Virus record (IMG/VR): IMGVR_UViG_3300020162_001995
Location: 1 to 37,066 of that record
Strand: one strand, 5' to 3'
Origin: a virus
Length of the DNA: 37,066 nt
In this document: positions 9,157-31,668 of the stretch, in pieces
Layout of the letters: each line of letters begins with the position of its first letter
Position numbering within the stretch: position 1 is the stretch's first letter
Made by a program: the position numbers and the translations under genes
Notes under the pieces: model-generated
Told to the model about the DNA's origin: nothing
The model's input: only the letters and a program-made list of their open reading frames with translations
Database searches by the model: none

Positions 9157-9756
9157 ATGAACAAATATATAATTTATCTTTTAGGCTGTATTTTATTCTC
9201 CTTTGGAGCTACACTATTTATTACTAGCAATTTGGGTACTGACCCCTTGGATGTTCTGGCTATTGGAATGAAAGACACATTTGGTTGGATGATAGGTACA
9301 ACTCAAAGCGTTTTCGCATTATGTTGTTTATTTCTATATAGTTATTTGAATAAATGGAAATTCCCACCAATCTCAACCTTCTTGACTTTTTTCATATGTG
9401 GATATCTTATAGATTTTTTTCTATTTTTATTAAACCATCAACACATTGTTAATCCATTTCTGGAAATGCTTTTTGGGGTTATTATTTGTACCCAAGCTAG
9501 TGCTTTAATAATGATGTCTGGATTTGGTATAAGAGCCATGGATTTGGTTGCAATATCATTATCCGAGATAACCAAAAAACCATTTTGGCTGTTTAAAGGT
9601 ATTGCCGAGGTATTGCTTTTGACCGTTGGTTATTTTTTGGGAGGCATTGTTGGTATCGGCACTATTTTCTTTTTACTATTTGTGGGTTGGTTAATACAAC
9701 CATGTATTCGTTTAAATAGTAAATTGGGAATACCTAATTACGGCAAGGTTCATTAA
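9157..9756 (+). CDS. YczE/YitT-like integral membrane protein
   Basis: A 199-residue polytopic membrane protein with about five or six hydrophobic segments. The N-terminal pattern GCILFSFGATLFITSNLGTDPLDVLAIGMKD... is the hallmark of YczE/YitT-type bacterial membrane proteins: a Gly-rich first helix followed by 'LG-x-DP-x-[DT]-x-L-x-x-G'. A second copy of that theme, MSGFGIRAMDLVAISLSEI, appears after residue 120, showing the internal duplication of the family. The function of YczE proteins is unknown. This looks host-derived and is rare in phages. It is inserted between the primase and a convergent late gene. Confidence 0.85.
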   Translation: MNKYIIYLLGCILFSFGATLFITSNLGTDPLDVLAIGMKDTFGWMIGTTQSVFALCCLFLYSYLNKWKFPPISTFLTFFICGYLIDFFLFLLNHQHIVNPFLEMLFGVIICTQASALIMMSGFGIRAMDLVAISLSEITKKPFWLFKGIAEVLLLTVGYFLGGIVGIGTIFFLLFVGWLIQPCIRLNSKLGIPNYGKVH

Positions 9757-10172
9757 TCTTGCTCACCAGCAATTAAGTATCCCTTTAATGCTTCAGCTAA
9801 ACCGCTGAGTTCAACTGCTATACGAGATATTCTACGATGTTCCGAGGATGCTATTTTCTCGAAAAGGGTATCGCAACCAGCATTGTGTAATTGAGCTTGA
9901 ACGGATGTTTGATTCACACCATTCACATATTCAACAAATTTTTCAATTTCTGCAACCCATTCAGATAAAATTTTCTTTTGTTTAGCTAAAGATTCTTTTC
10001 TAATAACTTCAACTTGACCAACATCTGTATTGAAAGATTCTGGTGGTGTCCCAGCATCTAATTCAGCGGTCATAGCTGCTGTTTCCGCATTCGCGGTAGC
10101 TTCTGGTGCAGCCACAGCCTCTTGTTCATCTTGTTCCAAGATGGCGTTGAAATATTTTTCGTATATACCCAT
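9753..10172 (-). CDS. Ala/Glu-rich late protein with capsid-targeting-like N-terminus
   Basis: A 139-residue protein beginning MGIYEKYFNAILE-Q. The first 13 residues follow the pattern shared with the late genes at 12865, 31208 and 31483, ending at Glu13, a T4-type prohead-protease site (I-L-E). Residues 14-55 are Ala/Glu/Thr-rich and likely disordered. The rest is two long helices (SLAKQKKILSEWVAEIEKFVEYV; HRRISRIAVELSGLAEALKGYL). No family is recognised. It is transcribed from a canonical late TATAAATA box. Inference: an internal head protein whose leader is removed during maturation. Confidence 0.7.
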   Translation of the reverse strand: MGIYEKYFNAILEQDEQEAVAAPEATANAETAAMTAELDAGTPPESFNTDVGQVEVIRKESLAKQKKILSEWVAEIEKFVEYVNGVNQTSVQAQLHNAGCDTLFEKIASSEHRRISRIAVELSGLAEALKGYLIAGEQD

Positions 10173-10198
10173 AAGATTATTTATTTATTACGTCTAAA

Positions 10199-10206
10199 TA
10201 TTTATA
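10199..10206 (-). promoter_or_regulatory. T4-like late promoter TATAAATA
   Basis: On the minus strand TATAAATA (10206 to 10199) lies 27 bases before the ATG at 10172. On the plus strand the same segment reads CTAAATATTTATA (10194-10206), so a second late-like CTAAATA faces the gene at 10211. Confidence 0.6.
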
Positions 10207-10210
10207 ACAA

Positions 10211-10597
10211 ATGAAAGAAAATTTTAAAATACTTCAAGAAGACGATCAAAAAATATACAATAAATGGGTTAAAGGTATAGCAAAACAGGAAGCTCCGTCT
10301 CAAGTTATTACAGTTGATGATATTGTAAATAGATATAGAAATAATGTTTCCTATGAAGCTAGTAGGCAATTACCATTTGGTTTAGATTTTTTATTGGATA
10401 GAATAGGTGATATTTTCGTAAAATGTTCAAATGTGAGAATGGATTTGGCAAATGCTATGAAGAATCCAGTCATATATGAACATAATCAAAGAATATCAGC
10501 TGTTAAAAAATTGAATGATAAAATAGACAAAGTACAAGAAATGTTATTTTCCTGTACGGAAGAGATGAATGAAATAGTTGAAAGTCACGAAAAGTGA
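10211..10597 (+). CDS. Unknown helical protein
   Basis: A 128-residue, mainly helical protein (KILQEDDQKIYNKWVKGIAK; FGLDFLLDRIGDIFVKCSN; KKLNDKIDKVQEMLFSCTEEM) with a likely C-terminal coiled coil. It diverges from the late minus-strand gene (start codons 39 bases apart) and overlaps the next gene if that gene uses its TTG start. No family is recognised. Confidence 0.6.
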   Translation: MKENFKILQEDDQKIYNKWVKGIAKQEAPSQVITVDDIVNRYRNNVSYEASRQLPFGLDFLLDRIGDIFVKCSNVRMDLANAMKNPVIYEHNQRISAVKKLNDKIDKVQEMLFSCTEEMNEIVESHEK

Positions 10598-10613
10598 TAT
10601 AATTATTGATGTA

Positions 10614-11090
10614 ATGTTTAATGTCACAAATCCTATCATTAAAAGAATAATATCTAGCTTGCTCATAACATCAACAATATCCTTTCTAGGAGCTTTGTTT
10701 TTATTAAATTTTGGTTTTAATTTTATAGTTAGTTTGTTTTTTATTTTTATTCTACAATTTGTAGTTTTTTATTTTTATGGAGAGCATGTTAAAAGGAAAA
10801 ATGCATATATTGAGGCAGAATTGGAATTGCAAGCTGCTTCTGAATTGAGAAAAATAACCGCTGATGTTGTATGCCCATGTGATCAAAAAGTTCAAACTAC
10901 CATACCAGTAGAGATGAATCGTGAAAATTCATATGTGTGCGGTCAATGTAATAAAAGAGTTGGAATTTTGATAGATCTTAAAACCGTATTAAAAACAGAT
11001 CCGATAATTGATGATCCGTTAAAAAATTCTGAAATTTTAAAAAATGTAAATGAAGCTTTAAAAGACCCATCTCATAATGATAGAATTTAA
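10614..11090 (+). CDS. Membrane-anchored protein with a C-terminal zinc-ribbon-like domain
   Basis: About 158 residues from the ATG at 10614; a TTG at 10578 would add 12 residues and overlap the previous gene. Two adjacent hydrophobic segments (SSLLITSTISFLGALFLLNF and FIVSLFFIFILQFVVFYFYG) form a helical hairpin in the membrane. A charged helix follows, then CPCDQKVQTTIPVEM...YVCGQCNKRVG, in which CxC and CxxC would form a zinc ribbon. The layout suggests a cytoplasmic zinc domain tethered to the inner membrane. No named family is recognised. Confidence 0.65.
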   Translation: MFNVTNPIIKRIISSLLITSTISFLGALFLLNFGFNFIVSLFFIFILQFVVFYFYGEHVKRKNAYIEAELELQAASELRKITADVVCPCDQKVQTTIPVEMNRENSYVCGQCNKRVGILIDLKTVLKTDPIIDDPLKNSEILKNVNEALKDPSHNDRI

Positions 11091-11445
11091 AAAAACAGAT
11101 AGTAGTTCCATTCCTCCAGAAATTACATCTAGAGAAATTGTTAAAAATGAAGATGTTTTATATTTTTTTGAACAATTGTGTAAAAAAAATGTTGAGGATT
11201 ATATGGTTTTTAAAAAAAATAGTTTTAAAAATCAAAATTTAGATATAATTAAAGATTTTTTAAACAAATTTGAGAATTTCATAAAAGATGAAAGTTCAAA
11301 TAAAGACAATAAAGAAGTTGTTAATATAATTTTTAACAATATAAAGAACAATATAAAAATATTAGAACATTTGGAAATGCTTCCAAAAGATAATAAAAAC
11401 AAAGCATTTTTATTATCATTCGTATCTTCTAGATTATTTCCTTGA
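11077..11445 (+). CDS. Unknown Lys/Asn-rich helical protein
   Basis: A 122-residue charged helical protein, starting inside the end of the preceding gene (14-base overlap). It has no recognisable motif or membrane segment. Codon use matches the surroundings and the frame is tightly coupled, so it is probably real. Confidence 0.6.
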   Translation: MIEFKKTDSSSIPPEITSREIVKNEDVLYFFEQLCKKNVEDYMVFKKNSFKNQNLDIIKDFLNKFENFIKDESSNKDNKEVVNIIFNNIKNNIKILEHLEMLPKDNKNKAFLLSFVSSRLFP

Positions 11446-11479
11446 CTTTCTTTTTAAAAATTGAGACACTGCATGTCTT

Positions 11480-11767
11480 ATGAATGAAAAAGTTGTAATC
11501 AAAACAAGCAAAGAAGAACATGTAATGGATAAAGACGCTTTTATACGTTGGCTATGCTTGATAGAGATTGTTCAATTGGCCGAAGAAAAAGCGATTGATT
11601 TGAAGGTAGATTTGGAAGATGTTGATTGGGTCAAACCATTGGCTTTTAAAAAATATATGAATGAGCGTTTTAAAAGTATGGAAATTGATTTAATGGCTGA
11701 CGAACGAAATGGTAGTATGGTCTTGGATTACGTCAATAATAACCACCATATTCCAGAGTATTGTTAA
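11480..11767 (+). CDS. Unknown small acidic protein
   Basis: A 95-residue protein: a beta hairpin (KVVIKTSKEEHVMDKDAFIRWL) followed by helices (CLIEIVQLAEEKAIDLKVDLED; KYMNERFKSMEIDLMADE). No family is recognised. Its last 35 bases overlap the convergent neck gene. TTGACT at 11442 resembles a -35, but no matching -10 follows. Confidence 0.6.
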   Translation: MNEKVVIKTSKEEHVMDKDAFIRWLCLIEIVQLAEEKAIDLKVDLEDVDWVKPLAFKKYMNERFKSMEIDLMADERNGSMVLDYVNNNHHIPEYC

Positions 11768-12488
11768 TGCTCATATCGAATACGAATTTTTTAGATTCGG
11801 TGTCTGAATCTTGTGGATATGATGATAGTCTTTCTGTTGGGGTTTGTAAAGACCCCGACAGATCTCCATAGAATGTATCATCATGTACTTGATAATTTCC
11901 CTTTTCTTGGGGTATATTCTCAAAAGAATGTTCAAGACGTTTAGCTTTCAATAACCAAACATAATGGCCAGCTAAAGGATTTATGGAAGAATTGTCCTCA
12001 TCACATCTTTCTGTAATTTCGTACATTTTACCGTCTCTTTCACCAGGTCTATCTGAACCGTATTCCACTAATTTAAAAACATCTCCAGATTTAGGTTCTA
12101 ATTTTTTATCTGGAAAATGAGCATAAAATGAACTTATGTGTAAATATGCTGTTACTTGATCATCAGATCTATAGCCGAATTTTGATAATACCAAAGCATT
12201 CTCAGCCAAAGTGAATATCATTATCATCTCTTTAGGTTCTTCGAATTGATCGACTGGCATTTCCCCATAAGTATTATCACCGTCTTTTAAATTGTATAAA
12301 TTTCTATAATACAATATTTTTTGACCATATAAATCTATTTGCTCTCTCCAATAATTACTATATAATAATCTTTCAGCTTCATTTTTTTCTTTATCTGTAA
12401 AACGCAATGTTGATGACACATAGTTATTGTAATTATCGGGATAAGTCCTGATACAATTCACACCTTTATGTTTATCGTAAGTTATCAT
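11733..12488 (-). CDS. 14: Neck protein, T4 gp14-like
   Basis: A 251-residue virion protein (T4 gp14 is 256) that joins the filled head to the tail. It starts MITYDKHKG (compare MATYDKN in T4). Its core has the gp14 order: VLSKFGYRSDDQVTAYLHISSF (T4: FSNFGMQVQDEVTLSINP), LEPKSGDVFKLVE (T4: EPKEGDLIYFP), KMYEITE (T4: LFEINWV) and a Leu-rich closing strand HYVWLLKAKRLEHSFENIP. It overlaps the stop codon of the upstream minus-strand gene by 4 bases and forms one late operon with the portal gene. Confidence 0.65.
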   Translation of the reverse strand: MITYDKHKGVNCIRTYPDNYNNYVSSTLRFTDKEKNEAERLLYSNYWREQIDLYGQKILYYRNLYNLKDGDNTYGEMPVDQFEEPKEMIMIFTLAENALVLSKFGYRSDDQVTAYLHISSFYAHFPDKKLEPKSGDVFKLVEYGSDRPGERDGKMYEITERCDEDNSSINPLAGHYVWLLKAKRLEHSFENIPQEKGNYQVHDDTFYGDLSGSLQTPTERLSSYPQDSDTESKKFVFDMSINNTLEYGGYY

Positions 12489-12865
12489 TTTTTTAATATA
12501 AAGGATTTTTTACTATCATCCCAAACTATTTGTATTCCAGTATTTCCTAATTTTTTTGGTTCCGTTTTAGATACGCTATATATACCATATTTTTTACATA
12601 CCTTTTTCAATTGTACACTATTTAAAGGGACATTCACAGATGGATTATTTTTCAATTTCTCCACTTGCTGAATGATTGTCATATCTGGTTTATGCATATC
12701 TGGAACAGTTTGTGCATGTTTTCTTTTAAAAGGATCTAATATTAAAGACCTTCTGTGTCTGGCTCCCTTTTTTATAGGTGGTTTTTGTGGTAAAAACATG
12801 TTCACGTAACCATGATTCCATGTTTGCTCTAAAATAATAGAAAATGTTTTTGCGAATAGCCCCAT
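12485..12865 (-). CDS. Small basic late protein with capsid-targeting-like N-terminus
   Basis: A 126-residue protein starting at the ATG at 12865 (MGLFAKTFSIILE-Q), 16 bases after the portal stop; a longer frame to 13000 would only read through the portal C-terminal code and is rejected. The first 13 residues match the shared late-gene leader ending at Glu13. The remainder is rich in Lys/Arg/Pro (PQKPPIKKGARHRRS) with an ordered C-terminal part (LNSVQLKKVCKKYGIYSV...IQIVWDDSKKSFIL). No family is recognised. Between portal and neck genes, it is likely an internal head or connector-associated protein. Confidence 0.65.
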   Translation of the reverse strand: MGLFAKTFSIILEQTWNHGYVNMFLPQKPPIKKGARHRRSLILDPFKRKHAQTVPDMHKPDMTIIQQVEKLKNNPSVNVPLNSVQLKKVCKKYGIYSVSKTEPKKLGNTGIQIVWDDSKKSFILKK

Positions 12866-12881
12866 GGAACTATTTATTATT

Positions 12882-14741
12882 TTATGCTTCTGGAGTTGGA
12901 GCCTTACCTTCGTTACTAGGTGGAGGCGTTGGGGCCGATGCTCCAGATGGAGGAGGTCCAAAATCTGGTGGGGCTTCTTCCGCACCACCTCCTGCTCCAC
13001 CTATTGGTGATCCAGCAGGAGCGCCACCACCACTTCCAGTCGGAATAGCTCCACCACTTCCAGCAGCCATAGGTTGCCCTTCTACAACTTCACCTCCAGC
13101 GGTTGTCAATTGCCTCCAATTTGGTCCCATAGCTGTGATTTGAGCCAATTCAAATTCCAATTCTTTATCCTTTTTCAAGAATGCTCTATTTGCTAAAATT
13201 TCTTGATCACTCCATCTCAAATATTTTTTCTGAGCATATGTTTTTGATATGGATTCGTTTTGAGTCATATTGTTGAATGTTGTGTATTTTATTTCAGCCT
13301 TTTGAGCCTCTCTCATTTCAAAAAAGTTGGTTGGTGGGGTAAATTTGATATCAAAGTCTGTTTCTTTAACATCATATTTACTCCATAATTTTTTTAATTT
13401 TAAATGCACTATAAAAGTATTCTTTAAACTTTCCGCAAAATGCATTTGCATACGCATAATAAATTTAGCAAATTTTAATTCCTCTCTCAAAATTTGCATA
13501 CCATCACCATATGCTGAATCTGGAGCTATTCTATTGACAGGTACTTTTAAAGATTTATACAATTTGATTAAAAAATAATCCAAATCTGGCAAAGTGTTTA
13601 ATTGAGGTCCACCTTGAAGCTCTCTAACATCTGTTCCTTCAGAACCTTGTCTTTTTGCAAACCAATAATTATCCAAATAACTCTGAGGATTGAATTTGTT
13701 CACTTGACCAGCTTGATCAACATCAAATGTTCTTTTAGACCAATAATCTTGAATCATTTTTCTCAAATATGATTCAGCTTTAGGTGCTGGCATTGTTCCA
13801 ACATCAACGTTGAAAACTAGTCTTGAAGGCGCTCTTGCTAGTCTATGAATGACTACACTATCTTCTATCAGAGATAGTTGACGATATGCGCGTCTAGCGT
13901 TTTCAATGAAAGGTATTCTCATTGTTTTATTTTCATTCCATATTCCAGAATTGACATATGTAATTTGATTTTTATCCATAGGCACTAAAGCATAATCAAC
14001 CACTTTAGATGGATTTGTCTGATCGAATACAGGTTTTCTTAAAAGAAATCCTTTTATCAACATGTTTTGAATATTTCCAAAAATAGGATCTATTAGTTCT
14101 GTTGGAACACTGACAACACCGAGTACACCTTCTTCTTCTCTTTCTTTATGTATAATGTTTTCCCAATATAATTCTCCATCAACCATTACATTTCTAAAAT
14201 ACTCCCAACCCTTTTTTTCAAATTCAAAATAATTTATAATTTTATCAAATTCTTCTGTTAAATCAGATTTTGCGTCAGATTTTAAATCTTCATTGGGGAA
14301 TTCCAATTTAACAATCTTGTTATTCTCATCTTTATTAACAGATTCATCACATATTTCATCCAATGCTTCAGCCACTTCCGAAAAAGCTGCCATTACTCTA
14401 TAGTCACGCAATCTTGCAATTTTATCCGCTTGGACATTCGCATACATGTATTGTGTGAAATTCGAATCAATATTAAAAAATGCCGTTGGAGATAACTCGT
14501 TATATTCTGAAGATGAACTTATACTCTGTCTAGCTAACGCTTCTGTCCTTTTGGAACCCGTATCTTGGAAAGATTTAAACTTTGGATTTAATTTAGAGAT
14601 GGTATCTATTACAGTATATGACTGATATGGAAGGTATGAATTTACATAATTCATTAAGCTTCTTCCAAATGTAGACTCTCTTCCTGATGATGAATTTGTT
14701 GGCACAGTATTATTTATATCGGAAAATGCTAAAGAAAACAA
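12882..14741 (-). CDS. 20: Portal protein, T4 gp20-like, with a Gly/Pro-rich tail
   Basis: Forms the dodecameric ring through which DNA is packaged and ejected. The 619 residues carry the gp20 hallmarks: DYRVMAAFSEVAEALDEICDE (113-133), the central RLVFNVDVGTMPAPKAESYL (307-326), then FAKRQGSEGTDVRELQGG (361-378) and FLIKLYKSLKVPVNRI (390-405), which match gp20 segments containing 'DVG-x-[LM]PA-x-KAE', 'RR-x-G-x-GTEI-x-x-L-x-GG' and 'KLYKSL-x-VP'. From about residue 548 the protein runs into a roughly 70-residue Gly/Pro/Ala/Ser low-complexity extension not expected of gp20. The start is TTG at 14741, because an in-frame stop lies just upstream; the next in-frame ATG is at residue 30. Confidence 0.93.
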   Translation of the reverse strand: MFSLAFSDINNTVPTNSSSGRESTFGRSLMNYVNSYLPYQSYTVIDTISKLNPKFKSFQDTGSKRTEALARQSISSSSEYNELSPTAFFNIDSNFTQYMYANVQADKIARLRDYRVMAAFSEVAEALDEICDESVNKDENNKIVKLEFPNEDLKSDAKSDLTEEFDKIINYFEFEKKGWEYFRNVMVDGELYWENIIHKEREEEGVLGVVSVPTELIDPIFGNIQNMLIKGFLLRKPVFDQTNPSKVVDYALVPMDKNQITYVNSGIWNENKTMRIPFIENARRAYRQLSLIEDSVVIHRLARAPSRLVFNVDVGTMPAPKAESYLRKMIQDYWSKRTFDVDQAGQVNKFNPQSYLDNYWFAKRQGSEGTDVRELQGGPQLNTLPDLDYFLIKLYKSLKVPVNRIAPDSAYGDGMQILREELKFAKFIMRMQMHFAESLKNTFIVHLKLKKLWSKYDVKETDFDIKFTPPTNFFEMREAQKAEIKYTTFNNMTQNESISKTYAQKKYLRWSDQEILANRAFLKKDKELEFELAQITAMGPNWRQLTTAGGEVVEGQPMAAGSGGAIPTGSGGGAPAGSPIGGAGGGAEEAPPDFGPPPSGASAPTPPPSNEGKAPTPEA

Positions 14742-17247: not shown

Positions 17248-17973
17248 ATGTGGGTTGAAGAATTTCCCTTGATTGGGGAAAAAATCCCATCCTTAGAAAA
17301 GGATACACATACTTATCGTTGCTCGGATGGTTATTTATATAAATCCGTTTCTTCAATACTTTCTTCTATAAAACCAAAATTTGATTTAGAACAGAAAGCC
17401 TTGGAATATTCTTTAAGGAGAAAGATTCCAATAGATGATGTTTTTAAATTGTGGGAAGATAAGAAAAATGTCGGTTTAAAATATGGTACCGATGTTCATG
17501 AAAATGTTGAAGAATATTTTAAAACGAGGAATGTTATAAATTCTAGATATGAATCTATTATTAAAGAAATCTACGATAGGGTTTATGTTGAGAGTGGACA
17601 TAACGAATTGATATGTTTTGATAAAAATAAAAAAATATGCGGTACAGCCGATTATGTTGTATTTGGTTTTAATTTTTTTGATATTTTTGATTTTAAAACA
17701 AATTTAAAATTTAATTTTGAAAATCAATATGATGATAAATTTTTATTAGATCCAGTATCCCATTTACCAAACTCTGAGTATTTTATATACTCTTTGCAAT
17801 TATCTTTTTATGCTAATATGATAGAAAGATTGACTGGTTTAAAATGTAGATTTTTAAATATATTTTGGTTGAAACGTATGATAGATACTAAATTAGTCTT
17901 CAAGGCCAAGTGGTTGAAATATACAGTCCCTTACTTAAAGGAAGAAGTTGAAAATATTTTATGCAACGTTTAA
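17248..17973 (+). CDS. RecB/Cas4-like PD-(D/E)XK exonuclease
   Basis: A 241-residue nuclease of the RecB family. The visible motifs are YKSVSSILSSIKP (30-43), the GxxxH-type GTDVHENVEEYF (80-91) with a metal-ligand His, GTADYVVF (132-139) with the catalytic Asp, DIFDFKTN (145-152) with the D-x-K pair, and the QxxxY-like LQLSFYANMIERL. Members degrade DNA ends in recombination and host DNA breakdown. It lacks the four-Cys cluster of Cas4. It overlaps the dCMP deaminase start by 13 bases; both would serve nucleotide supply and recombination. Confidence 0.85.
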   Translation: MWVEEFPLIGEKIPSLEKDTHTYRCSDGYLYKSVSSILSSIKPKFDLEQKALEYSLRRKIPIDDVFKLWEDKKNVGLKYGTDVHENVEEYFKTRNVINSRYESIIKEIYDRVYVESGHNELICFDKNKKICGTADYVVFGFNFFDIFDFKTNLKFNFENQYDDKFLLDPVSHLPNSEYFIYSLQLSFYANMIERLTGLKCRFLNIFWLKRMIDTKLVFKAKWLKYTVPYLKEEVENILCNV

Positions 17974-18389
17974 AATGGGAAGAATATGCACTCGAATTGG
18001 CAAGAACGGCTTCTTTGAGGTCCGAAGATCCTTTTAGAAAAGTTGGTGCTTGTGCATTGTCTTATGATAATAGAGTATTGGGGGTTGCATATAATGGTTT
18101 AAAGAGTGGTAAAATTGTTGATGAATCTTTTTGGAAAGATAGAGACGCTAGAAGACCTTTCATGATTCATGCTGAAACTAATCTTCTTTCACTATTTCCT
18201 AGAAATGAGGGTTCTTTGATAGCAGTAACTTTGTTACCATGTTCTAGTTGTGCTAAAATGATTTGTTCTTGGAATATTAATACTGTTGTGTATTCTGAAG
18301 AATATGAAAATGTTGATGCTTTGCATAGTAAAGAAATATTTGATTTTTATAATATAAGATTGAAAAAAATAACATATTCGAATAAATAA
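17961..18389 (+). CDS. cd: dCMP (deoxycytidylate) deaminase
   Basis: Zinc-dependent deaminase converting dCMP to dUMP for dTMP synthesis. Zinc ligands and catalytic Glu are visible as HAE (70-72) and PCSSCAKM (93-100); the N-terminal block WEEYALELARTASLRSEDPFRKVGACAL is typical of the dCMP/Cyt deaminase fold. At 142 residues it is shorter than T4 Cd (193), lacking the extra zinc-binding insert. The substrate could also be another cytosine nucleotide. It lies directly before the tail-fibre gene. Confidence 0.85.
   Translation: MQRLKWEEYALELARTASLRSEDPFRKVGACALSYDNRVLGVAYNGLKSGKIVDESFWKDRDARRPFMIHAETNLLSLFPRNEGSLIAVTLLPCSSCAKMICSWNINTVVYSEEYENVDALHSKEIFDFYNIRLKKITYSNK
18382..18389 (+). promoter_or_regulatory. 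Candidate late-type box before the tail-fibre gene
   Basis: ATAAATAA, followed by TTTG and the ATG at 18398, resembles the late boxes elsewhere. It overlaps the stop codon of the deaminase gene, so chance is possible. Confidence 0.35.
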
Positions 18390-18397
18390 TTTGAAAT

Positions 18398-20203
18398 ATG
18401 GCTACAGTTGCAACTATTTCTGTCAATTTCGCAAATTACGGCACCTCATCATTCACTCCAGCTGGAGTAACAGATAGGTCTATAAACCCCTTAACATTAT
18501 CTCAATTTTGTCTAGGTTCATCTACTGGTGATTTCGGTTATATTGGGGGGTTTGTTAAAAAAACGGGCGATACCATGAGTGGTATGTTGACCCTTCCTTT
18601 GACGATGCCTACAACCGATAATCATGCCGCTAGAAAGGGGTATGTAGATTCTAGAATAAATTCTTTATCTTCAACTATATCTGACACTGGTGTTATTGGA
18701 TATGTTCGTATTTCTGGATCTACCATGACTGGTATGTTGACTTTACCAACTACCGACCCTACTAATGTCAATCATTCTACGAGAAAGGGTTATGTTGATG
18801 GTAGAATAGCTTCATTATCTGGACAAGTTAATAATGTATTGGCAGGAAATCCAGGCTATTTGAAACTAAATGGTGGTACCATGTCTGGTATAATCAACAT
18901 GGGTAATAGCAAAATTACTCAATTACCAACCACTGGCCTTAATGATACTGATGCTGTTCCTAAGAAATATGTGGATGATGCTATTGGTGGTGGTACTAGT
19001 GGTTTGGTTAGTAAATCATATGTTGATGCCGCTGATGGTTTACGAGTGTTGAAGACTGGCGATACCATGAGCGGAACTTTGAATATAGCTGGTACGACTC
19101 AGACTATAGGGGTTAATACTGGACCCACTGGAGCTAGTTTGGATATTCAAGCCAGTACCACTGGTATTGACGGCAATGCTGCATATATGAGTTTTCATAG
19201 ACCATCCAAATATGCTGTTAGATTGGGTCTAGATACTGATAATAAATTAAAAGTTGGTGGGTGGAGCATGGGTAATGTAGCCTATGAAATTTTAAATTCT
19301 AACAATTGGTCTACTTATATACCCAATCAAACGTCTAATGATCTTAGATACATATTAAAAGCTGGTGATACCATGAGTGGTTTTTTAACATTAAATGCTA
19401 ATCCTACTTCAAATTTACATGCTGCCACTAAACAATACGTAGATAGTGCCGTTGGCGGTGGTACTAGTGGATTAGTTAGTAAAACATATGTAGATAACGC
19501 CGATGCCTTGAGGGTGTTGAAGACTGGTGATACCATGAGTGGTTTTTTAACATTACATGCTAATCCCACTTCAAATTTACATGCTGTCACTAAACAATAC
19601 GTAGATGCTGGCTTGGGTGGTAAAGTAGATTCCGCTACACTTGGGCTTTATTTACCTTTGAATGGTGGTACTTTAACTAACTTTTTAACATTACATGCTA
19701 ATCCTACTTCAAATTTACATGCTGCCACTAAACAATACGTAGACAGTGGTGTTTCTGCCGCAACAACCGCTGCCAATACAGCAAAAACAGCTGCCGATAA
19801 TGCCGCTACTGCTGCTGCGGCTGCTAATACGAATGCTAATACTAGAGTTTTAAAAGCTGGTGACACCATGACTGGCTCATTGACAGTTCAAGGTAATATT
19901 ACCGCTAGTGGAGAAGTTACTGCATATTCGGATGCAAGGTTAAAAACAAATATTAAAGTTATAGAAGATGCCTTAAATAAAGTTCTGAAATTAAAAGGTG
20001 TAAGTTTTGAAAAAAAACCTGATAATAGAAAATCCATAGGTGTTATTGCGCAAGATGTCATGGAAGTTATACCTGAAGTTGTTAATTATGAAACAGATGG
20101 TTATTATTCCGTAGCGTATGGTAACATTGTTGCCGTTTTGATTGAAGCTGTAAAGGAGCTTTCAAATAAAGTTGACATTTTAGAACAAAAGTTAAATAGT
20201 TAA
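18398..20203 (+). CDS. Tail fibre with repeats and C-terminal S74 intramolecular chaperone
   Basis: A 601-residue fibre. From about residue 50 to 490 it is built of repeats of the type GDTMSG-x-LTL, then P-T-[DS]-x-x-HA-[AV]-[TR]-K-[QG]-YVD, a common trimeric fibre module. A short Ala/Asn-rich helical stretch (AATTAANTAKTAADNAAT) follows, and the last ~95 residues form a peptidase S74 / intramolecular chaperone domain: SDARLKTNIKVIEDALNK, SIGVIAQDVMEVIPEVV and a final trimeric coiled coil. The Ser of 'SDARLK' is the expected self-cleavage nucleophile, so the chaperone is removed after trimerisation. The protein probably binds host receptors or carries the adhesin encoded next. Confidence 0.92.
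   Translation: MATVATISVNFANYGTSSFTPAGVTDRSINPLTLSQFCLGSSTGDFGYIGGFVKKTGDTMSGMLTLPLTMPTTDNHAARKGYVDSRINSLSSTISDTGVIGYVRISGSTMTGMLTLPTTDPTNVNHSTRKGYVDGRIASLSGQVNNVLAGNPGYLKLNGGTMSGIINMGNSKITQLPTTGLNDTDAVPKKYVDDAIGGGTSGLVSKSYVDAADGLRVLKTGDTMSGTLNIAGTTQTIGVNTGPTGASLDIQASTTGIDGNAAYMSFHRPSKYAVRLGLDTDNKLKVGGWSMGNVAYEILNSNNWSTYIPNQTSNDLRYILKAGDTMSGFLTLNANPTSNLHAATKQYVDSAVGGGTSGLVSKTYVDNADALRVLKTGDTMSGFLTLHANPTSNLHAVTKQYVDAGLGGKVDSATLGLYLPLNGGTLTNFLTLHANPTSNLHAATKQYVDSGVSAATTAANTAKTAADNAATAAAAANTNANTRVLKAGDTMTGSLTVQGNITASGEVTAYSDARLKTNIKVIEDALNKVLKLKGVSFEKKPDNRKSIGVIAQDVMEVIPEVVNYETDGYYSVAYGNIVAVLIEAVKELSNKVDILEQKLNS
19381..19740 (+). repeat. Three ~60-base near-identical direct repeats in the fibre gene
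   Basis: Copies at 19381-19440, 19543-19602 and 19681-19740 differ from each other at only a few positions. They encode the FLTL(N/H)ANPTSNLHA module and are long enough for homologous recombination between copies, so module number could vary. Confidence 0.85.
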
Positions 20204-21339: not shown

Positions 21340-21987
21340 ATGTATATGTTTAATTATAATTACTCGATTATTAATGAATCTTCGATAGATAAAGACGAGC
21401 ATTTTCAGATTTTAATAAAATCTGAAAAACTTTTAAAAAAATACGATATTAAAATTAAGAAATATGTAGATGATGACTTATTGAACATAATTTGTGAATA
21501 CTACGGAAATAAATTTATGGAATCTGAAAAAAAATATATTGCGATAATTGAAAAATTAAAAGAAGAATCTCATTTTGAATTCTTCTTTAAAAAAAATTCG
21601 GAAGAATCTATCGACTATGATAGATTGCCAGATATAACTTTGGATATATTGGAAATAGATCATGATAATTTAGAAGTTAAATTTTTGCCTTATTCTAGCT
21701 TGTATAAGAGTGTTAATAAATCTGTATACCCGACAATAAGTTGTAAATTCGATTTATTGGATGGTGTGGTGTCTAATGGTTTAGACCTTGGAAATTTATT
21801 ATTAGATTATTCTCAACAGTTGATATCTAATATTTTGGATGAAGAAAAAAATGATCCAAACATTTATTCTAAAAATGATATTGTGGGTACTGTTATGGAT
21901 GGTGGTGATGATGATCGGGAATATTTAAACGATACTGTATTTTTTGGTAAATCTAATAAAGCACTCGATGCTTTGAATTTTATATAA
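21340..21987 (+). CDS. Unknown acidic protein
   Basis: A 215-residue protein. The first half is helical and Lys/Glu-rich (LIKSEKLLKKYDIKIKKYVD; KFMESEKKYIAIIEKLKEE). The second half is beta-rich with acidic turns (LPDITLDILEIDHDNLEVKFLP; YPTISCKFDLLDGVV). No family is recognised. It is the first gene behind an early-type promoter; ATG 21346 is an alternative start. Confidence 0.6.
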   Translation: MYMFNYNYSIINESSIDKDEHFQILIKSEKLLKKYDIKIKKYVDDDLLNIICEYYGNKFMESEKKYIAIIEKLKEESHFEFFFKKNSEESIDYDRLPDITLDILEIDHDNLEVKFLPYSSLYKSVNKSVYPTISCKFDLLDGVVSNGLDLGNLLLDYSQQLISNILDEEKNDPNIYSKNDIVGTVMDGGDDDREYLNDTVFFGKSNKALDALNFI

Positions 21988-25831: not shown

Positions 25832-26377
25832 ATGGGAGAAAAAAAATATATAACACCTGATGTTTATTACATCGATAATTTTTTAGAAGAATCTTTTATA
25901 GATAATTTGCACGATAAAATATCTAACCCTTCATCTTTGTGGTTTAGACATTCATGTAGAGGTTTTGATGTCGATAAAAATTTTTATTTCTATAATCCTT
26001 TAAGTCCTGACGATTATGCGGGTGAATATGAACATTTTTCTAACATATTGAAGGATAATGAAGTTACTAGAATTTATGTAAATGGTCAAGTTGGTGTGGA
26101 GCATGGTAATTTTCATAAAGATGATGGTGATGAAACTTTTTTAATAGGGTTGACTAAAGGTTGGAATTCAGAATCTGGTGGAGCTACCGAATTTAAATCG
26201 GGAGATGATTGTTCATTTTCCATATATCCAAAATATAATAGAATAATATGTTTTAAATCAGATATAGAACATAGGGCTTTACCAAACGTAGATTTACATT
26301 CTTTTAGAATGACTTTAGCGATAAAAACTAATAAAGTTAAAAAAAATAATATTTCAAATATAAATTTTATAGCATAA
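25832..26377 (+). CDS. 2OG-Fe(II) oxygenase, prolyl-4-hydroxylase-like (copy A)
   Basis: A 181-residue dioxygenase. The iron ligands are H95 and D97 in NFHKDDGDETF and H147 in DIEHRALPN; R159 in FRMTLAIK would hold 2-oxoglutarate. Between them, GLTKGWNSESGGATEF (106-121) is the 'GG-x-[TL]-x-[FL]' strand typical of prolyl-4-hydroxylase-type enzymes. It is a paralogue of the next gene. It is led by its own early-type promoter directly after the ABC-GNAT gene. Confidence 0.88.
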   Translation: MGEKKYITPDVYYIDNFLEESFIDNLHDKISNPSSLWFRHSCRGFDVDKNFYFYNPLSPDDYAGEYEHFSNILKDNEVTRIYVNGQVGVEHGNFHKDDGDETFLIGLTKGWNSESGGATEFKSGDDCSFSIYPKYNRIICFKSDIEHRALPNVDLHSFRMTLAIKTNKVKKNNISNINFIA

Positions 26378-26378
26378 T

Positions 26379-26909
26379 ATGAACAATAAAACGCACATCA
26401 ATGAAGATATATATTTTGTAGACAATTTTTTACCAGAAGATTTTTTGAATGACTTGGTTAATAAAGTATTGAACGATTCTTGGCATAAACATTATAGTAG
26501 AGACGGTGATGGAATTTTCTTTTGGGCTTTAAATTTAACTAATGATTCTTATGAAAATGAATTAGAATTTATAGAAAGTTTATTCCCTAATAATGATGTT
26601 TTGAGGGTTTATGTTAACGGACATTCGGGTATACAGCATGGGAGCTTCCATACAGATGATGGTGAAGAAACATATCTGGTGGGTTTAACTAAAGGTTGGA
26701 ATTCAGAATCTGGTGGAGCTACTGAATTTAAAACGAAACATGATAATTCTACACTTTCAATATATCCTCTATATAATAGAATGGTTTGTTTTCCAGCACA
26801 TATTGAACATAGGGCTGCTCCAAATATTGATTTATACACTTTTAGAATGACTTTAGCTATTAAAACTGATCGTAAAAATTCTACAAAAGGTTTAAATTTT
26901 ATACAATAA
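26379..26909 (+). CDS. 2OG-Fe(II) oxygenase, prolyl-4-hydroxylase-like (copy B)
   Basis: A 176-residue paralogue of copy A, starting one base after its stop codon. It has the same ligands (H91, D93, H144, R156) and an identical GLTKGWNSESGGATEFK segment, while the N-terminal 70 residues have diverged and are shortened. Roughly half the residues are identical by eye. Both copies keep every catalytic residue, so both are probably active, perhaps on different substrates or as a heterodimer. Confidence 0.88.
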   Translation: MNNKTHINEDIYFVDNFLPEDFLNDLVNKVLNDSWHKHYSRDGDGIFFWALNLTNDSYENELEFIESLFPNNDVLRVYVNGHSGIQHGSFHTDDGEETYLVGLTKGWNSESGGATEFKTKHDNSTLSIYPLYNRMVCFPAHIEHRAAPNIDLYTFRMTLAIKTDRKNSTKGLNFIQ

Positions 26910-26911: not shown

Positions 26912-26939
26912 TTGACAATGTGAAATGCCAGTTTATCAT
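26912..26939 (+). promoter_or_regulatory. Early-type promoter for the AbrB-like gene
   Basis: TTGACA at 26912-26917, 16 bases, TATCAT at 26934-26939, 8 bases to ATG 26948. Confidence 0.65.
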
Positions 26940-26947
26940 ATAAAGGT

Positions 26948-28012: not shown

Positions 28013-28761
28013 AAAAGGTTAAATCTAAAAAAATTCAAATTGAATTTGATTATGAACATCTTTCAATTTTAACAACTGCTTTGGAAGTTTATTCTCGTCT
28101 TCGTTCTGGTCAAGTTGATATGGCTATGAGTGAGGCATATGCTGATAGGTATCTTGATTGGAACGAGAGGGAAGCTATCCATAGACATGTTAGATATGCT
28201 ATGTTCCCATCTTTACCAGAAAGAAGATATGATGGTCATGGTGGGTTTTACGATCAGTATAATAACGAATATGATGAGAGTGGTTCTATAATAAAAGAAT
28301 CAGAAGAGTGGGTTAAAAAGAAAAATTTCCCACATTTAGATCACCCGAATTCATCTTTTGGTGTTGGTAATACTGAAGAGATGAGAGATGGTACAATTGC
28401 ATGGGAGATTAAAAAGGTTATAGATCAATATCTCCATTATGAGAGAAATGATGGATATCGCAGGATATGTGATGTTAGCGGTGATGGTGCTATGAAGTAT
28501 TCAAACGTCGAGCCTCCTAAAATATTGGATGGCATTTTAGGATATTGGAAGCCTCAGAAGCAATTTAGAATACCTCAAAAGTTTCAAAAAAAGATTGATA
28601 ATGCTATTAAAAATAAAAAATTCGATAAAGCTTGGGATATTGTTTATGAAGCATTTGAAAAATCACCATTACCTAAAGGAAATTGTTCGAAAATAGAAGA
28701 TGTTGGTGGAAGTTATTATGTTATAATTGAAGAACCTTATAAATTTGATGAAAAGTATTGA
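28009..28761 (+). CDS. Conserved phage protein of unknown function
   Basis: A 250-residue protein. The opening helix EHLSILTTALEVYSRLRSGQVD resembles a phage family in which 'L-x-x-ALE-x-YSR-x-x-x-GQ' is followed by a variable middle. There is also a Gly/Tyr-rich loop (RRYDGHGGFYDQYNNEYDES) and a C-terminal helical part. No catalytic motif is visible. It overlaps both neighbours (4 bases upstream, 14 bases downstream). Confidence 0.65.
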   Translation: MKKVKSKKIQIEFDYEHLSILTTALEVYSRLRSGQVDMAMSEAYADRYLDWNEREAIHRHVRYAMFPSLPERRYDGHGGFYDQYNNEYDESGSIIKESEEWVKKKNFPHLDHPNSSFGVGNTEEMRDGTIAWEIKKVIDQYLHYERNDGYRRICDVSGDGAMKYSNVEPPKILDGILGYWKPQKQFRIPQKFQKKIDNAIKNKKFDKAWDIVYEAFEKSPLPKGNCSKIEDVGGSYYVIIEEPYKFDEKY

Positions 28762-29446
28762 TCCACATAAGCCTTTATTATTTTTAGGAGATCATCATGG
28801 AGAATGGTCTTATCTTCTTGATATTATAGATACTAAAAAAATAAGCGATTGTTATTTGATTAGCGTTGGGGATTCTGGAATTGGATTTACCAATAAGGAA
28901 AATCAAATAAAGATGATAAATTATTTAAATTATGAATTTAAAGAAAGAAATATTATCTTTATGGCTATTAGAGGTAATCATGATGATCCTGTTTATTTTC
29001 AAGGAATTGATAGAGTTTCATTAAGTAATTTTGAATTAATTGAAGATTATACTGTAGCCGAATATGATGGTAAAAAAATTCAATTTATTGGTGGTGCGGT
29101 TTCTATCGATAGAACATCTAGAACCGAAGGACGTTCGTATTGGGAAGATGAAGTAGTTAAATTCGATAGAGATAAATGCAAAGAAGTAGATATTCTAATA
29201 ACCCATACTGCCCCTTCTTGGTGCTTTCCACAGCAATTTAATGAATTGGTTTATGGATGGGCAAATGAGGATGCTTATTTGCTGGAAGACCTTACAGACG
29301 AAAGAGCCATTATGGATGAGATTTGTAAACTATGTAAACCATCATTACATCTTTATGGACATTTTCATTCTAGTTGGACTGAGGTTATAAATGGATGTAA
29401 ACATAAGCTTTTAGACATTAATGAATTTTGGGGGAATCGTGGATAA
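28748..29446 (+). CDS. Calcineurin-like metallophosphoesterase
   Basis: About 232 residues from ATG 28748 (MKSIDPHKPLLFLGDHHGEW); a TTG at 28727 would add seven. All dimetal motifs are present in order: GDHHG, SVGDSGIGF, RGNHDDP, ITHTAPSW and LYGHFHSSW. Family members hydrolyse phosphomonoesters or diesters of proteins or nucleic acids. It lies directly upstream of the RNA ligase gene (six-base gap), so a role in trimming RNA ends before ligation is possible, although a lambda-type protein phosphatase role is equally compatible. Confidence 0.9.
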   Translation: MKSIDPHKPLLFLGDHHGEWSYLLDIIDTKKISDCYLISVGDSGIGFTNKENQIKMINYLNYEFKERNIIFMAIRGNHDDPVYFQGIDRVSLSNFELIEDYTVAEYDGKKIQFIGGAVSIDRTSRTEGRSYWEDEVVKFDRDKCKEVDILITHTAPSWCFPQQFNELVYGWANEDAYLLEDLTDERAIMDEICKLCKPSLHLYGHFHSSWTEVINGCKHKLLDINEFWGNRG

Positions 29447-29452
29447 TTTTTA

Positions 29453-30547
29453 ATGAAAGTGAATATACCAACAGAGGAAGATTGTTTTAATATCGTTCCT
29501 AACAAATTTTGTGGTTTGGATTGTTATTTAATAACTCCAGAAATCGATGCGAAGTGGACTAGTAACAATTTATTTTACAGATCTTTAATTACAGATAAAG
29601 ATGGAAATGTTTTATCTTCTGGTTTTCCTAAATTTTTTAATTATGGGGAGAAGACAAACTGTTATCCAGACCCTCAAATTTTTAATGATTGGAGATGCGA
29701 AGATAAGATTGATGGTTCTTTGCTTATAGCTGATTATGTAAATGATCAATTTTCTATGAGAACGAGAGGAACTGTTTCATACTCCACTCAAGAAAACTTT
29801 AAAGATTTTGAGAGATTGCCAGAAAAATATCCAGAAGTTGTTAATTTTTTAAAAAATAATCAGCATTTGAGTCTTTTGTTCGAGATTGTTACACCGAACA
29901 ATGTGATTGTTGTTAGAGCTTCTCAGATAGAATTTTACCTCATAGGTGCTATAAACAAGAATGGTATGTGTGTTGTTTCCTCTGCCGATTTGACTGATAT
30001 ATGGAGGAAGATAGGTCCGATACCTACACCACAATCTTATAACTTCTTAGACACTAATGATCTTTCTAAGATAGCAGAAAATATAAAATATTGGAAGGGT
30101 AAAGAGGGTATTGTTGTTTCTTACAATAATGGTCAAAATAGAATCAAATTAAAATCAGATTGGTATTTGTTTTGTCACAGAGTTAAATCGCAACTCAGTT
30201 CTACTAAAAATCTTATTGATTATTATATAGATAATAACATGCCTTCTTATGAAGAATTTTATAAAATGATTGAAACAGAATTTGATTATGAGATTGCTAT
30301 TCAATTAAAATGGGAATTGGAAAAAATTTGCGAAGCAGGAGAAAAATCGAAAAAATATATTGATCATATACTAGAAGTAGTACATGATATTAGAAAAGTA
30401 GAAACGAGAAAAGAACAAGCAGAAATGATATTGAGAAATTTTAAAGATAATTCATCATTTGTATTTTCTGTTTTAGACGGTAAAAAAATAACCAAAGATC
30501 AATGGATTAATTTGATGAAACAAAATTTAATCATCTCACAGGATTGA
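29453..30547 (+). CDS. rnlA: RNA ligase, T4 Rnl1 type
   Basis: A 364-residue ATP-dependent RNA ligase that would reseal cleaved tRNA or other RNA. Nucleotidyltransferase motifs are FPKFFNYGE (58-66, the Rnl1 'KFFNYGE'), motif I EDKIDGS with adenylated Lys85, RTRG (103-106), motif III-like LLFEIVTP (141-148), motif IV KGKEGIVV (215-222) and motif V RIKLKSDWY (230-238). The C-terminal ~110 residues are helical, as in Rnl1. No polynucleotide kinase is within the window. It converges on the minus-strand nuclease gene, overlapping its end by 17 bases. Confidence 0.93.
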   Translation: MKVNIPTEEDCFNIVPNKFCGLDCYLITPEIDAKWTSNNLFYRSLITDKDGNVLSSGFPKFFNYGEKTNCYPDPQIFNDWRCEDKIDGSLLIADYVNDQFSMRTRGTVSYSTQENFKDFERLPEKYPEVVNFLKNNQHLSLLFEIVTPNNVIVVRASQIEFYLIGAINKNGMCVVSSADLTDIWRKIGPIPTPQSYNFLDTNDLSKIAENIKYWKGKEGIVVSYNNGQNRIKLKSDWYLFCHRVKSQLSSTKNLIDYYIDNNMPSYEEFYKMIETEFDYEIAIQLKWELEKICEAGEKSKKYIDHILEVVHDIRKVETRKEQAEMILRNFKDNSSFVFSVLDGKKITKDQWINLMKQNLIISQD

Positions 30548-31208
30548 TTTCGAAGGTTTTGTGTTTCATTACAATTTCCGCTGGAACGTATAAAGTCATG
30601 TCGAAATTGCCAAAACGTCTTCTAGTGTAGAAGACTGCTTCTTTGTTTGGTATAAGAACCGCATCTTCTTTAATATCTGTATATTTGACAGCTTCTTTGT
30701 TTGAGGTATGAAATAATTCTACACCCCTACCTTCTCCTCTCTTAGAGAAAAGTCCTAAAGATTCTATTTCTTTTAAAAGAGGGTGTCTTTTAACCATATC
30801 GAAACCTCCTCTTGAAGTATTGTAAAATGCTATGTAGTTCGCCTCACCATACATCCATCCTTTATGTCCCTTATTGCCTACAAATTCCAATAATAAGTTA
30901 TCTGTTCCTATCAATCTTTTGTCGTTTTTAACTTCAACATAACAAGATTTATTTTTAGCAACCTTACCCGCATTTTCAGGTCTATCCCCCCATGCAGGTT
31001 CTCCTTTATCTAATACTTTAAAATCGATGTGTAGAACTGTCTCTTCGTATTGATCTGCTTGTTTACATTTTAATTTATTCTGTTTACACAATTGTACGAA
31101 TAAATCTTCGTAAGCTTGCCCTCTAGCTTCATCTCTTTCGGCATTACTGGCATTTTCTCCAGCATGAGCTTCTAATACTAAATTATAATAATTGTCGAAA
31201 AGATTCAT
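30531..31208 (-). CDS. PD-(D/E)XK nuclease with capsid-targeting-like leader
   Basis: A 225-residue protein beginning MNLFDNYYNLVLE-AHAG, the clearest example of the shared 13-residue late leader with a cleavage-type Glu13 followed by Ala. The mature part shows a restriction-endonuclease-like core: LHIDFKV (D62), YVEVKNDKRL (E92, K94), GTDNLLLEF, and GWMYGEANYIAFYN, the 'AdY' strand common in such nucleases. It is transcribed from a late-type box on the minus strand. Inference: a nuclease packaged in the head and injected with the phage DNA, which might cut host or competing DNA or RNA. Substrate and packaging are unproven. Confidence 0.78.
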   Translation of the reverse strand: MNLFDNYYNLVLEAHAGENASNAERDEARGQAYEDLFVQLCKQNKLKCKQADQYEETVLHIDFKVLDKGEPAWGDRPENAGKVAKNKSCYVEVKNDKRLIGTDNLLLEFVGNKGHKGWMYGEANYIAFYNTSRGGFDMVKRHPLLKEIESLGLFSKRGEGRGVELFHTSNKEAVKYTDIKEDAVLIPNKEAVFYTRRRFGNFDMTLYVPAEIVMKHKTFEINPVR

Positions 31209-31214
31209 ATTAAC

Positions 31215-31222
31215 TATTTATG
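31215..31222 (-). promoter_or_regulatory. Late-type promoter (CATAAATA) for the nuclease
   Basis: CATAAATA on the minus strand, only six bases before the ATG at 31208, so a late transcript starting at the usual distance would be leaderless. Confidence 0.45.
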
Positions 31223-31483
31223 TCAAGATTTATCTCCCTTTTTCCAAGATATTCTTTTAGAACTTTTTTTATTTTTTTTTCTGGAATTGCACATTGCTTT
31301 GGTTGGTCTACATGCTGGATAACTTCTTCTTTTTTCTCCTTCTTGTCTACCACAAGGTTTTCCTGTTTTACAATCAATCCAACCCTTTCCTTTATTTCTA
31401 TCGAACCAACCCTTTAATCCTTTTTTCTTTTCACTTTCAAATTTTTCTAAAAGTATATTAACGTATGATTGGAAATTATTCAT
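31223..31483 (-). CDS. Lys/Cys-rich small protein, DUF5872-like, with capsid-targeting-like leader
   Basis: An 86-residue protein starting MNNFQSYVNILLE-K. After the leader it reads GLKGWFDRNKGKGWIDCKTG, KPCGRQEGEKRRSYPACRPT and ends in Lys-rich sequence. The 'W-x-x-R-x-[KG]GKGW-x-DC-x-TG-x-PCGR...YPACRPT-x-x-x-C' motif occurs in small proteins of giant viruses and phages (DUF5872-type). It is highly basic, with four Cys in the conserved region. It overlaps the preceding gene by 4 bases. Possible roles are DNA condensation in the head or action in the host after injection. Confidence 0.72.
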   Translation of the reverse strand: MNNFQSYVNILLEKFESEKKKGLKGWFDRNKGKGWIDCKTGKPCGRQEGEKRRSYPACRPTKAMCNSRKKNKKSSKRISWKKGDKS

Positions 31484-31668
31484 TTGCTTTTATTTCCCCA
31501 ATTTTTAGCTCCAGCTTTTCTACATTTTACTAAAGCTCCTGATGCATAAGCACTTGGCCAAACTTTATATCTGGATTTTACTTTTTTATAACAAGCGTCT
31601 TGTTTCTTTTTAGTTTTAGCCTCGTTTATAATTTGTTTACAAAGGTTGTCAAAATTTGAAATGCTCAT
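31480..31668 (-). CDS. Small basic protein with 'KVKSRYKVWPSAYASGALVKC' motif (DUF5872-like)
   Basis: A 62-residue basic protein: MSISNFDNLCKQIINE-AKTK leader, then QDACYKKVKSRYKVWPSAYA and SGALVKCRKAGAKNWG. The second part is a well-defined motif seen in phages, giant viruses and some algal genomes; its function is unknown. The leader fits the shared pattern with three extra residues and an I-N-E|A site. It is the first gene of a late operon from the TATAAATA box at 31684. Confidence 0.75.
   Translation of the reverse strand: MSISNFDNLCKQIINEAKTKKKQDACYKKVKSRYKVWPSAYASGALVKCRKAGAKNWGNKSK

Follow-up and report, generated by a model that had tools for sequence, protein, structure and literature searches.

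T4-kind capsid-targeting leaders on otherwise unrelated proteins of an environmental T4-like phage: a sequence-based proposal

The window considered here, that is, the whole 37,066-nucleotide stretch of DNA that was analysed (IMG/VR record IMGVR_UViG_3300020162_001995), carries a T4-type portal gene, which marks the phage as T4-like, and a set of genes whose products begin with short, similar leader peptides. The wider genomic context was drawn from a partial 116-kb contig, G001, which is 99.99% identical to window positions 1-35779 and in which 153 genes were called; the gene caller missed a gene at 67614 and picked a later start for the gene beginning at 12865. The pertinent features of the window are the following (a slash marks the presumed cut position).

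281..946, minus strand: 221-aa acidic protein; leader of a second dialect, MRNNDQVAIFE/S, at 914-946
9753..10172, minus strand: 139-aa helical protein; leader MGIYEKYFNAILE/Q, residues 1-13 at 10134-10172
11733..12488, minus strand: head closure protein Hc2, gp14-like (phrog_679, E 2.7e-7); leader absent
12485..12865, minus strand: 126-aa basic protein, between the portal and head-closure genes; leader MGLFAKTFSIILE/Q at 12827-12865
12882..14741, minus strand: portal protein gp20, T4-type (PF07230, E 3.9e-97); leader absent
21340..21987, plus strand: 215-aa protein with a tag-like start, MYMFNYNYSIINE/S (13.5 bits with the G001-tag profile, 8.0 bits with the homologue-trained profile)
30531..31208, minus strand: 225-aa protein with a D-x(n)-E-V-K pattern; leader MNLFDNYYNLVLE/A at 31170-31208
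31223..31483, minus strand: 86-aa basic protein with a GWIDCKTGKPCGRQ body; leader MNNFQSYVNILLE/K at 31445-31483
31480..31668, minus strand: 62-aa basic protein with a KKQDACYKKVKSRYKVWPSAYASGALVKCRK body; leader MSISNFDNLCKQIINE/A at 31621-31668

An earlier note on this DNA had described a common 13-residue leader on the products starting at 10172, 12865, 31208 and 31483, and all four leaders are present as claimed. With its first residue left free, the pattern occurs four times in the six-frame translation of G001 (116 kb), every time at an ATG, against 3.4e-6 matches expected from composition across 461 start candidates. The start at 12865, an ATG inside a longer open reading frame, is backed by 11 homologues whose alignment begins at this very residue and which all retain the leader, and in the family of the 10172 product F8, L12 and E13 are invariant in nine aligned sequences, including that of the window. 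The bodies behind the leaders are indeed otherwise unrelated, with similarity in 2 of 253 pairs (E 0.01) among 23 hand-listed leader-bearing G001 proteins. The model of the 10172 product (pLDDT 66) gave no fold match at E 0.001, and no homologue of the 946 product was found in the loci searched. For the 31208 product there were no matches in phages, PDB, Pfam or NCBIfam and a single weak one in PHROGs (phrog_13596, E 0.029); its AlphaFold2 model was set aside (pLDDT 36). Its D-x(n)-E-V-K pattern resembles the D...ExK motif of PD-(D/E)XK nucleases, so that it may be nuclease-like; a homologue in locus L251 retains both the pattern and a leader, MYSFDKYCNLVLE/A.

In T4, a capsid-targeting sequence is carried by IPI, IPII, IPIII and Alt and is cut by gp21. 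T4 propeptides span 10-19 residues, of which residues 4 and 7, both aromatic in MKTYQEFIAE, serve targeting and residues 8 and 10 cutting, according to PMC9026906, which also describes that Asp at the T4 junction inhibits the cut yet still permits targeting. The leaders described here are likewise short, N-terminal and borne by unrelated, often basic proteins encoded alongside T4-like head genes, with an aromatic residue at position 4 and a hydrophobic-x-E junction of the gp21 type, [IL]-x-E. Position 4 is F or Y and position 7 T or Y in the four window leaders; other dialects vary there. Unlike in T4, several dialects are present per phage, including the 12-13-residue and MxxDxxLIFE forms, and roughly 20 genes in 116 kb, with other cargo bodies, appear to be tagged, as judged from sequence.

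Beyond the window, a profile built from the four leaders picks up further tagged G001 genes, in the kind of search that the note had suggested, and 14 of the 153 genes reach 10 bits with a leave-one-out profile, the training tags having been hand-picked from the same genome and only the tag itself being dropped each time. Two other parts of the original description fail. Tagged genes lie on both strands (plus-strand genes at 61341, 63523, 65449 and 66051 in G001 and at 21340 in the window), so that they are not restricted to one strand, and the length is not fixed at 13 residues, the terminal Glu being seen anywhere from residue 10 to 22. The 946 leader, formerly regarded as a Lys-for-Glu variant, was probably misread: it better fits a second dialect, MxxDxxL[IL]xE/x[YF], with IFE/S at residue 11, which opens 12 genes of three phages, the 946 gene among them. 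The dialects thus comprise MxxFxxxxxxILE of 12-13 residues, MxxDxxLIFE/xY and the T4-type MxTFKQFxxE of 10 residues. Two near relatives have head operons crowded with tagged genes; none of the 25 plus-strand G001 genes from 67.6 to 89.7 kb reaches 4 bits with the homologue-trained profile described next.

A second profile, trained on other phages' homologues of the 31483 and 31668 products, retrieved 8 of 153 G001 genes at 8 bits against 1.04 in shuffled sequences; because of that training the hits to these two families are not independent, and with gp22 also set apart five remain. The 10172 leader was missed (<2.5 bits), and T4's own leaders were not recovered above shuffle by this profile or by the G001-tag profile (2 of 256 T4 genes at 10 bits versus 0.65). 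A seed-free test, which seeks unrelated genes with a common start peptide and requires no T4 motif, found such peptides in excess of shuffle in G001, G002, G003, G011, part of immuto and T4, where IPII/IPIII formed the top pair, so that T4's own leaders are singled out by this approach; its body filter is crude, and two of the eight highest-ranking G001 pairs, a T4 homing-endonuclease pair, the Alt duplicate and an immuto tail pair do not represent independent leaders.

On one and the same body, leaders differ from phage to phage. A single DRC body carries MLTFKQFFVE (T4-type), MKFDVAVMQILSE, MSRFNNLIESLLE and others in different phages, each ending in [ILVF]-x-E, and retropepsin-like and nucleotidyltransferase bodies are also found with T4-type or 12-residue leaders; it is in the natural exchanges on these three kinds of body that interchangeability with the T4-type leader, which replaces long ones, is seen. 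The retropepsin of locus L264 starts MKTFKEYVNG, without the E, and in a few T4-type leaders P3 is occupied by F. The body of the 31483 product has 533 relatives; the best 80 loci comprise 51 leader-bearing and 29 leaderless ones (sorted by eye), and of 41 distinct N-terminal parts 29 end in [ILVM](x)E, again by eye, the remaining 12 being leaderless. Among named phages with this body, three of the seven non-immuto records were inspected. The leader accompanies the body in 11 of 11 contigs classified as T4-like versus 0 of 5 large contigs that lack T4-like markers (Fisher 2e-4), a comparison that covers 11 classified of 20 leader-bearing contigs and 5 gene-content-tested of 20 leaderless ones. 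Portal and gp23 genes were counted in 5 and 7 of the 20 leader-bearing contigs, respectively, versus none of the 20 leaderless; because differences in contig size confound these figures, nine contigs were also compared by gene content.

In the capsid protein, the inferred maturation site also reads [ILV]-x-E, resembling the leader junction, in 30 of 37 relatives (34 of 80 gp23 loci plus immuto, G001 and G011), when read off a conserved LLENQ motif; this was a changed criterion, the prior alignment to T4 residue 65 having given 2 of 38. Leader P1' residues, which include K, Q, D, E and M, are more varied than those of the capsid site. A search for gp21, which the note had suggested, found none in the partial 116-kb G001, where a tagged 270-aa gene occupies its usual place beside gp22, and none in the 36-kb record of locus L139; of the relatives searched, 7 of 11 with a leader and 0 of 6 leaderless ones have gp21. 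Flavobacterium phage immuto, a named phage, has both cargo domains together with gp20, gp21 and gp23.

The late promoters proposed for the tagged genes give a mixed picture: TATAAATA is exact for the 10172 (10199-10206) and 31668 (31684-31691) genes and has one mismatch for those at 12865 and 31208, and the 31483 gene, which overlaps the 31668 gene, has none of its own nearby. Of the 19 hand-listed tagged genes, 9 have an exact copy no more than 120 nt away, versus 8 of the 134 others (p 1e-5); for profile-called tags the enrichment is weak (at 4 bits, p 0.014 when one mismatch is allowed and 0.17 for exact copies), and the motif occurs in the window at chance frequency (9 versus a shuffle mean of 10.4).

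Taken together, the junctions, the capsid site, the swaps with T4-type leaders, the leaderless bodies of contigs that lack T4-like markers and the untagged plus-strand genes from 67.6 to 89.7 kb of G001 give good sequence support to the idea of a T4-type, gp21-cut leader on head cargo, now shorn of the single strand and the fixed length. Very probably, then, these leaders act as T4-kind capsid-targeting sequences, presumably cut by gp21, with the bodies kept in the head and some of them probably ejected. Tagged proteins would be synthesised late in infection and, by analogy with T4, docked by their N-terminal peptide in the prohead core; a prohead protease (gp21 in T4) would cut after Glu at [ILVF]-x-E, a site seen in the sequence, and would mature the capsid protein at a similar motif. 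The tag would then be lost, and the bodies would stay beside the DNA inside the head, from which some at least would probably be ejected into the next host, depending on the cargo; the phage and its relatives would employ several dialects simultaneously. A more ambitious version, which we advance tentatively and consider somewhat less likely than its negation, is a multi-dialect head-import code of environmental T4-like phages, serving at least 20 proteins per phage, with freely swapped tags and dialects that may be directed at different core partners or different stages; possible enzymes among the cargo are a retropepsin-like protease, an NMNAT-like nucleotidyltransferase and a possible nuclease.

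The leader could instead be an uncut docking helix for scaffold or capsid, retained on proteins assembled into the head. In agreement with this, the 10172 leader is predicted, in a low-confidence model, to be helical without a break to residue 18, and D15-E16, past the cut position, are conserved; however, a mere docking helix needs neither the junction E, which is retained across swapped leaders, nor a like motif in the capsid protein, and we regard this explanation as unlikely.

Still less probable is that late genes acquired copies of one another's 5' ends, from the promoter and ribosome site to the first codons, and that the peptide has no function, even though some tagged genes do share an AT-rich upstream sequence with late-promoter-like motifs. 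The leaders of seven genes are identical at 20-29 of 39 DNA positions and 4-9 of 13 residues and hence are not recent copies; in homologues the peptide pattern persists with 5-6 of 13 leader residues kept versus 52-53 of 67 in the body, and the same body is leaderless in contigs lacking T4-like markers. The least credible alternative, that the leaders are signals for the membrane or for export or that they enhance translation as start peptides of late genes, would account for the hydrophobic positions but hardly for leaders that end in Glu, have no long hydrophobic core (judged by eye) and are absent from the portal gene and from the gene at 7779-11129, one with an exact TATAAATA.

Since the tag is of the kind that loads the T4 head, it probably marks proteins carried in the phage particle, which may also be injected into the host. 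To our knowledge, carried or injected proteins are known for few tailed phages. The system is of a known kind, what is new being several, more widely used leader variants. Finding cargo by its tag is already established for T-even phages, whose ip genes were recognized through the signal sequence (PMC12373910, citing Repoila 1994); these phages are close relatives of T4, whereas the present ones are distant environmental phages with several leader types. In giant phages such as SPN3US, which belong to a different group, a prohead protease is reported to cut head-packaged proteins, many of which are ejected into the host. If the tag holds, many uncultured T4-like phages could be screened for candidate cargo by sequence alone, and, as most bodies searched had no known function, the resulting list would be one of possible anti-defence and host-takeover proteins. 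A NUDIX protein adjoining the head genes starts with MDIFTAYKIIKE/S, either by chance or as cargo.

The portal protein matches PF07230 (E 3.9e-97), which identifies the window as part of a T4-like phage genome; cyanophage gp20 is ~30% identical to this portal. As the longer genome we used G001, an IMG/VR contig (116,359 bp, itself partial) that matches window positions 1-35779 at 99.99%. The four leaders claimed in the earlier note for the products starting at 10172, 12865, 31208 and 31483 are in the window where the note put them, and the pattern drawn from them (first residue free) occurs four times in six frames of G001, always at an ATG, against a chance expectation of 3.4e-6 over 461 start candidates. 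The genome-wide search of N-termini that the note had proposed, run with a profile of the four leaders, further matched MNNFDQLVNVLLE (18.2 bits) and MHRFNKAIDIILE (9.0) in G001 and, in the relative G002, MSLFANHFNSILE (20.0 bits) on a homologue of the 10172 product; in shuffles, a score above 8 bits came up 0.11 times per genome in G001 and 0.13 times in G002, and the maximum, 17.0, was reached once in 300 rounds.

The observation of shared leaders is confirmed. With a profile trained on leaders of 31483 and 31668 homologues from other phages, 8/153 genes of G001 reached at least 8 bits versus 1.04 after shuffling (two of the eight being the training families and one the scaffold gp22), as did 10/295 versus 1.79 in G002, 6/141 versus 0.79 in G003 and 5/89 versus 0.45 in G011; the T4 result (4/256 versus 1.80) is uninformative for that phage, and the 10172 leader was missed. 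A seed-free count of gene pairs aligning at 28 or more over residues 2-13, after a crude filter for similar bodies, gave 8 pairs in G001 (0.23 shuffled), 29 in G002 (0.73), 5 in G003 (0.10), 4 in G011 (0.13), 5 in T4 (0.43) and 7 in part of the immuto genome (0.03), with 0 or 1 pairs for residues 31-42 as a control. Six of the eight G001 pairs are leaders and the top three of G011 are non-leaders; IPII/IPIII heads the T4 pairs, of which two more link these proteins to gp61.1. Among 23 candidate leader-bearing genes hand-picked in G001, 2 of 253 pairs have similar bodies, and a leave-one-out profile of the hand-picked tags scored at least 10 bits in 14/153 called genes versus 0.48 in shuffles.

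The leaders come in three dialects. The first, MxxFxxxxxxILE, spans 12-13 residues; the second, MxxDxxL[IL]xE|x[YF], is found on both strands in 12 genes across G001, G002 and G003, 11 of which have Glu at residue 10 and [IL] at residue 8, the spacing of T4 MKTYQEFIAE; the third is T4-type, exemplified by MRTFKQFVLE (non-ATG start) and MRSFSSFINE in G001 and by MKPFKQFLTE and MVSYRQFIKE in G002. The T4-type capsid-targeting interpretation offered earlier appears right in kind but wrong on three points: tagged genes are not restricted to one strand, leader length is not fixed (the junction Glu also falls at residue 10 or 11), and the 946 product, read as a Lys variant, better fits the second dialect with Glu at residue 11. 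According to excerpts of PMC9026906, T4 leaders with their targeting and cutting residues, and similar sequences on other basic T-even phage proteins, have already been described, and an excerpt of PMC12373910 reports internal-protein genes located through the signal sequence in T-even phages. For cyanophages and environmental T4-like phages, the literature searched mentioned no leaders of this type in its titles or abstract openings. We regard the leaders described here as a variant of the known system, new in form. Another two shared start peptides, MKKS[EQ]L..IIKE and FDLKKFLVENKLT.NS.LLKE, occur at 26185-26655 and in neighbouring genes of Flavobacterium phage immuto (L444, MW353175).

The same body can stand behind different leaders. 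The DRC body (69-87% identity among three compared) is preceded by MLTFKQFFVE, MKFDVAVMQILSE, MNLTVLIEKVLSE, MSRFNNLIESLLEE and others; among 20 distinct rows, five have longer starts still ending in IVNE, LVE or LIE, and one, in a contig devoid of T4-like markers (G035), lacks a leader. A retropepsin-like body, 41% identical between G001 (PF05618, 7e-9) and G002, follows MKFIKLYKTILE and MRSYKEFFYE, respectively, and in L264 starts MKTFKEYVNG, without Glu. A nucleotidyltransferase body, so named from matches below curated cut-offs and from an immuto protein that carries an NMNAT annotation and is 27% identical, follows MKPFKQFLTE in G002 and MKFDRYVQLVLE in L273, the bodies being 31% identical over 62 residues. 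Two relatives of the 31483 product retain 5-6 of 13 leader residues versus 52-53 of 67 in the body.

Leaders follow T4-like genomes. The 31483 product has 533 relatives; sorted by eye, the best 80 fall into 51 loci (29 distinct N-terminal parts) with a leader ending in [ILVM](x)E and 29 (12 parts) without one, and one leaderless group begins with a member that is cut at its contig end. Searches recovered the T4 portal from 5 and gp23 from 7 of 20 leader-bearing contigs but neither from any of 20 leaderless ones, and gp21 from 7/11 versus 0/6; in each of four contigs that have a leader but neither portal nor gp23, 7-20 G001 proteins had matches, whereas five leaderless contigs of 55-115 kb matched 0-2. 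By these marker and gene-content counts, 11/11 leader-bearing but 0/5 leaderless classifiable contigs, all fragments, are T4-like (Fisher 2e-4). Among named phages, leaderless 31483 bodies occur in Prochlorococcus phage P-SCSP2 (Autographiviridae) and Roseobacter phages CRP-7 and CRP-902 (52-58 kb). Immuto, which encodes gp20, gp21 and gp23, has the two small basic domains fused, preceded by IKEILSE and IQELLQE, a polyprotein-like arrangement in which each cargo domain follows [IL]xE. Within large multi-domain proteins (L328-L407), a module found in the 31668 product, KDACYxKVKSRYKVWPSAYASGALVKCRK, often lies behind [LI]xE-like junctions, which suggests protease-cut polyproteins.

The capsid protein of the group carries [ILV]-x-E just past an LLENQ motif in 30/37 sequences (CIEE|Q in G001); at least three of the remaining seven have CFE|A or CLE|A. 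In T4, 65 residues are removed from gp23 (PMC9026906, excerpt). Head-operon genes of two near relatives start NIF[EN]SYxNNVxLNE|A. The protease gp21, which the note had asked to locate, was not found in the partial G001, and a tagged gene fills its place, so it is encoded outside the stretch that G001 covers, has diverged too far to be recognised, or does not exist in this phage; L125 and L139 likewise have tagged low-complexity genes there, beside gp22 and gp23, and in G002 and G011 gp21 holds its usual place.

Genes with tagged or tag-like starts beside head genes
G001 17813-18625, minus strand: tagged low-complexity gene in the gp21 place, beside gp22/gp23
G001 19093-19521, plus strand: NUDIX hydrolase adjoining the head operon, tag-like start [DN]IF[TD]AYKIIKE|S
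L139 3517-3942: NUDIX hydrolase beside the head operon, tag-like start [DN]IF[TD]AYKIIKE|S

Several tagged bodies (31483, 31668, 65418 and 12865) are small and basic, as are T4 internal proteins. The 31208 product has the pattern H[IF]D[FY]KV...CYVEVKN, preserved in its L251 homologue; as a nuclease-like motif, this pattern would make the product a candidate nuclease. None of the 25 plus-strand genes at 67.6 to 89.7 kb of G001, presumably replication genes by resemblance, reached 4 bits with the homologue-leader profile; one scored 5.6 bits with the leave-one-out profile. One T4 product has a start closely resembling MKTYQEFIAE, the leader of IPII/IPIII, and may be a further head cargo of T4:

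NC_000866 18966-19130, minus strand: T4 gene 61.1, 54 aa, start MKTFKEFIKE|D

Evidence for late promoters, also claimed for the tagged genes, was mixed: 9/19 hand-listed genes have an exact TATAAATA no more than 120 nt away, versus 8/134 others (p 1e-5), one of these eight, 63523, having subsequently been counted as tagged, but the association is weak with profile-called tags. The frequency of TATAAATA within the window is at chance level. Two neighbouring genes at window positions 25832-26909 (plus strand) resemble tandem duplicates and share a stretch of ~230 bp at 79% identity.
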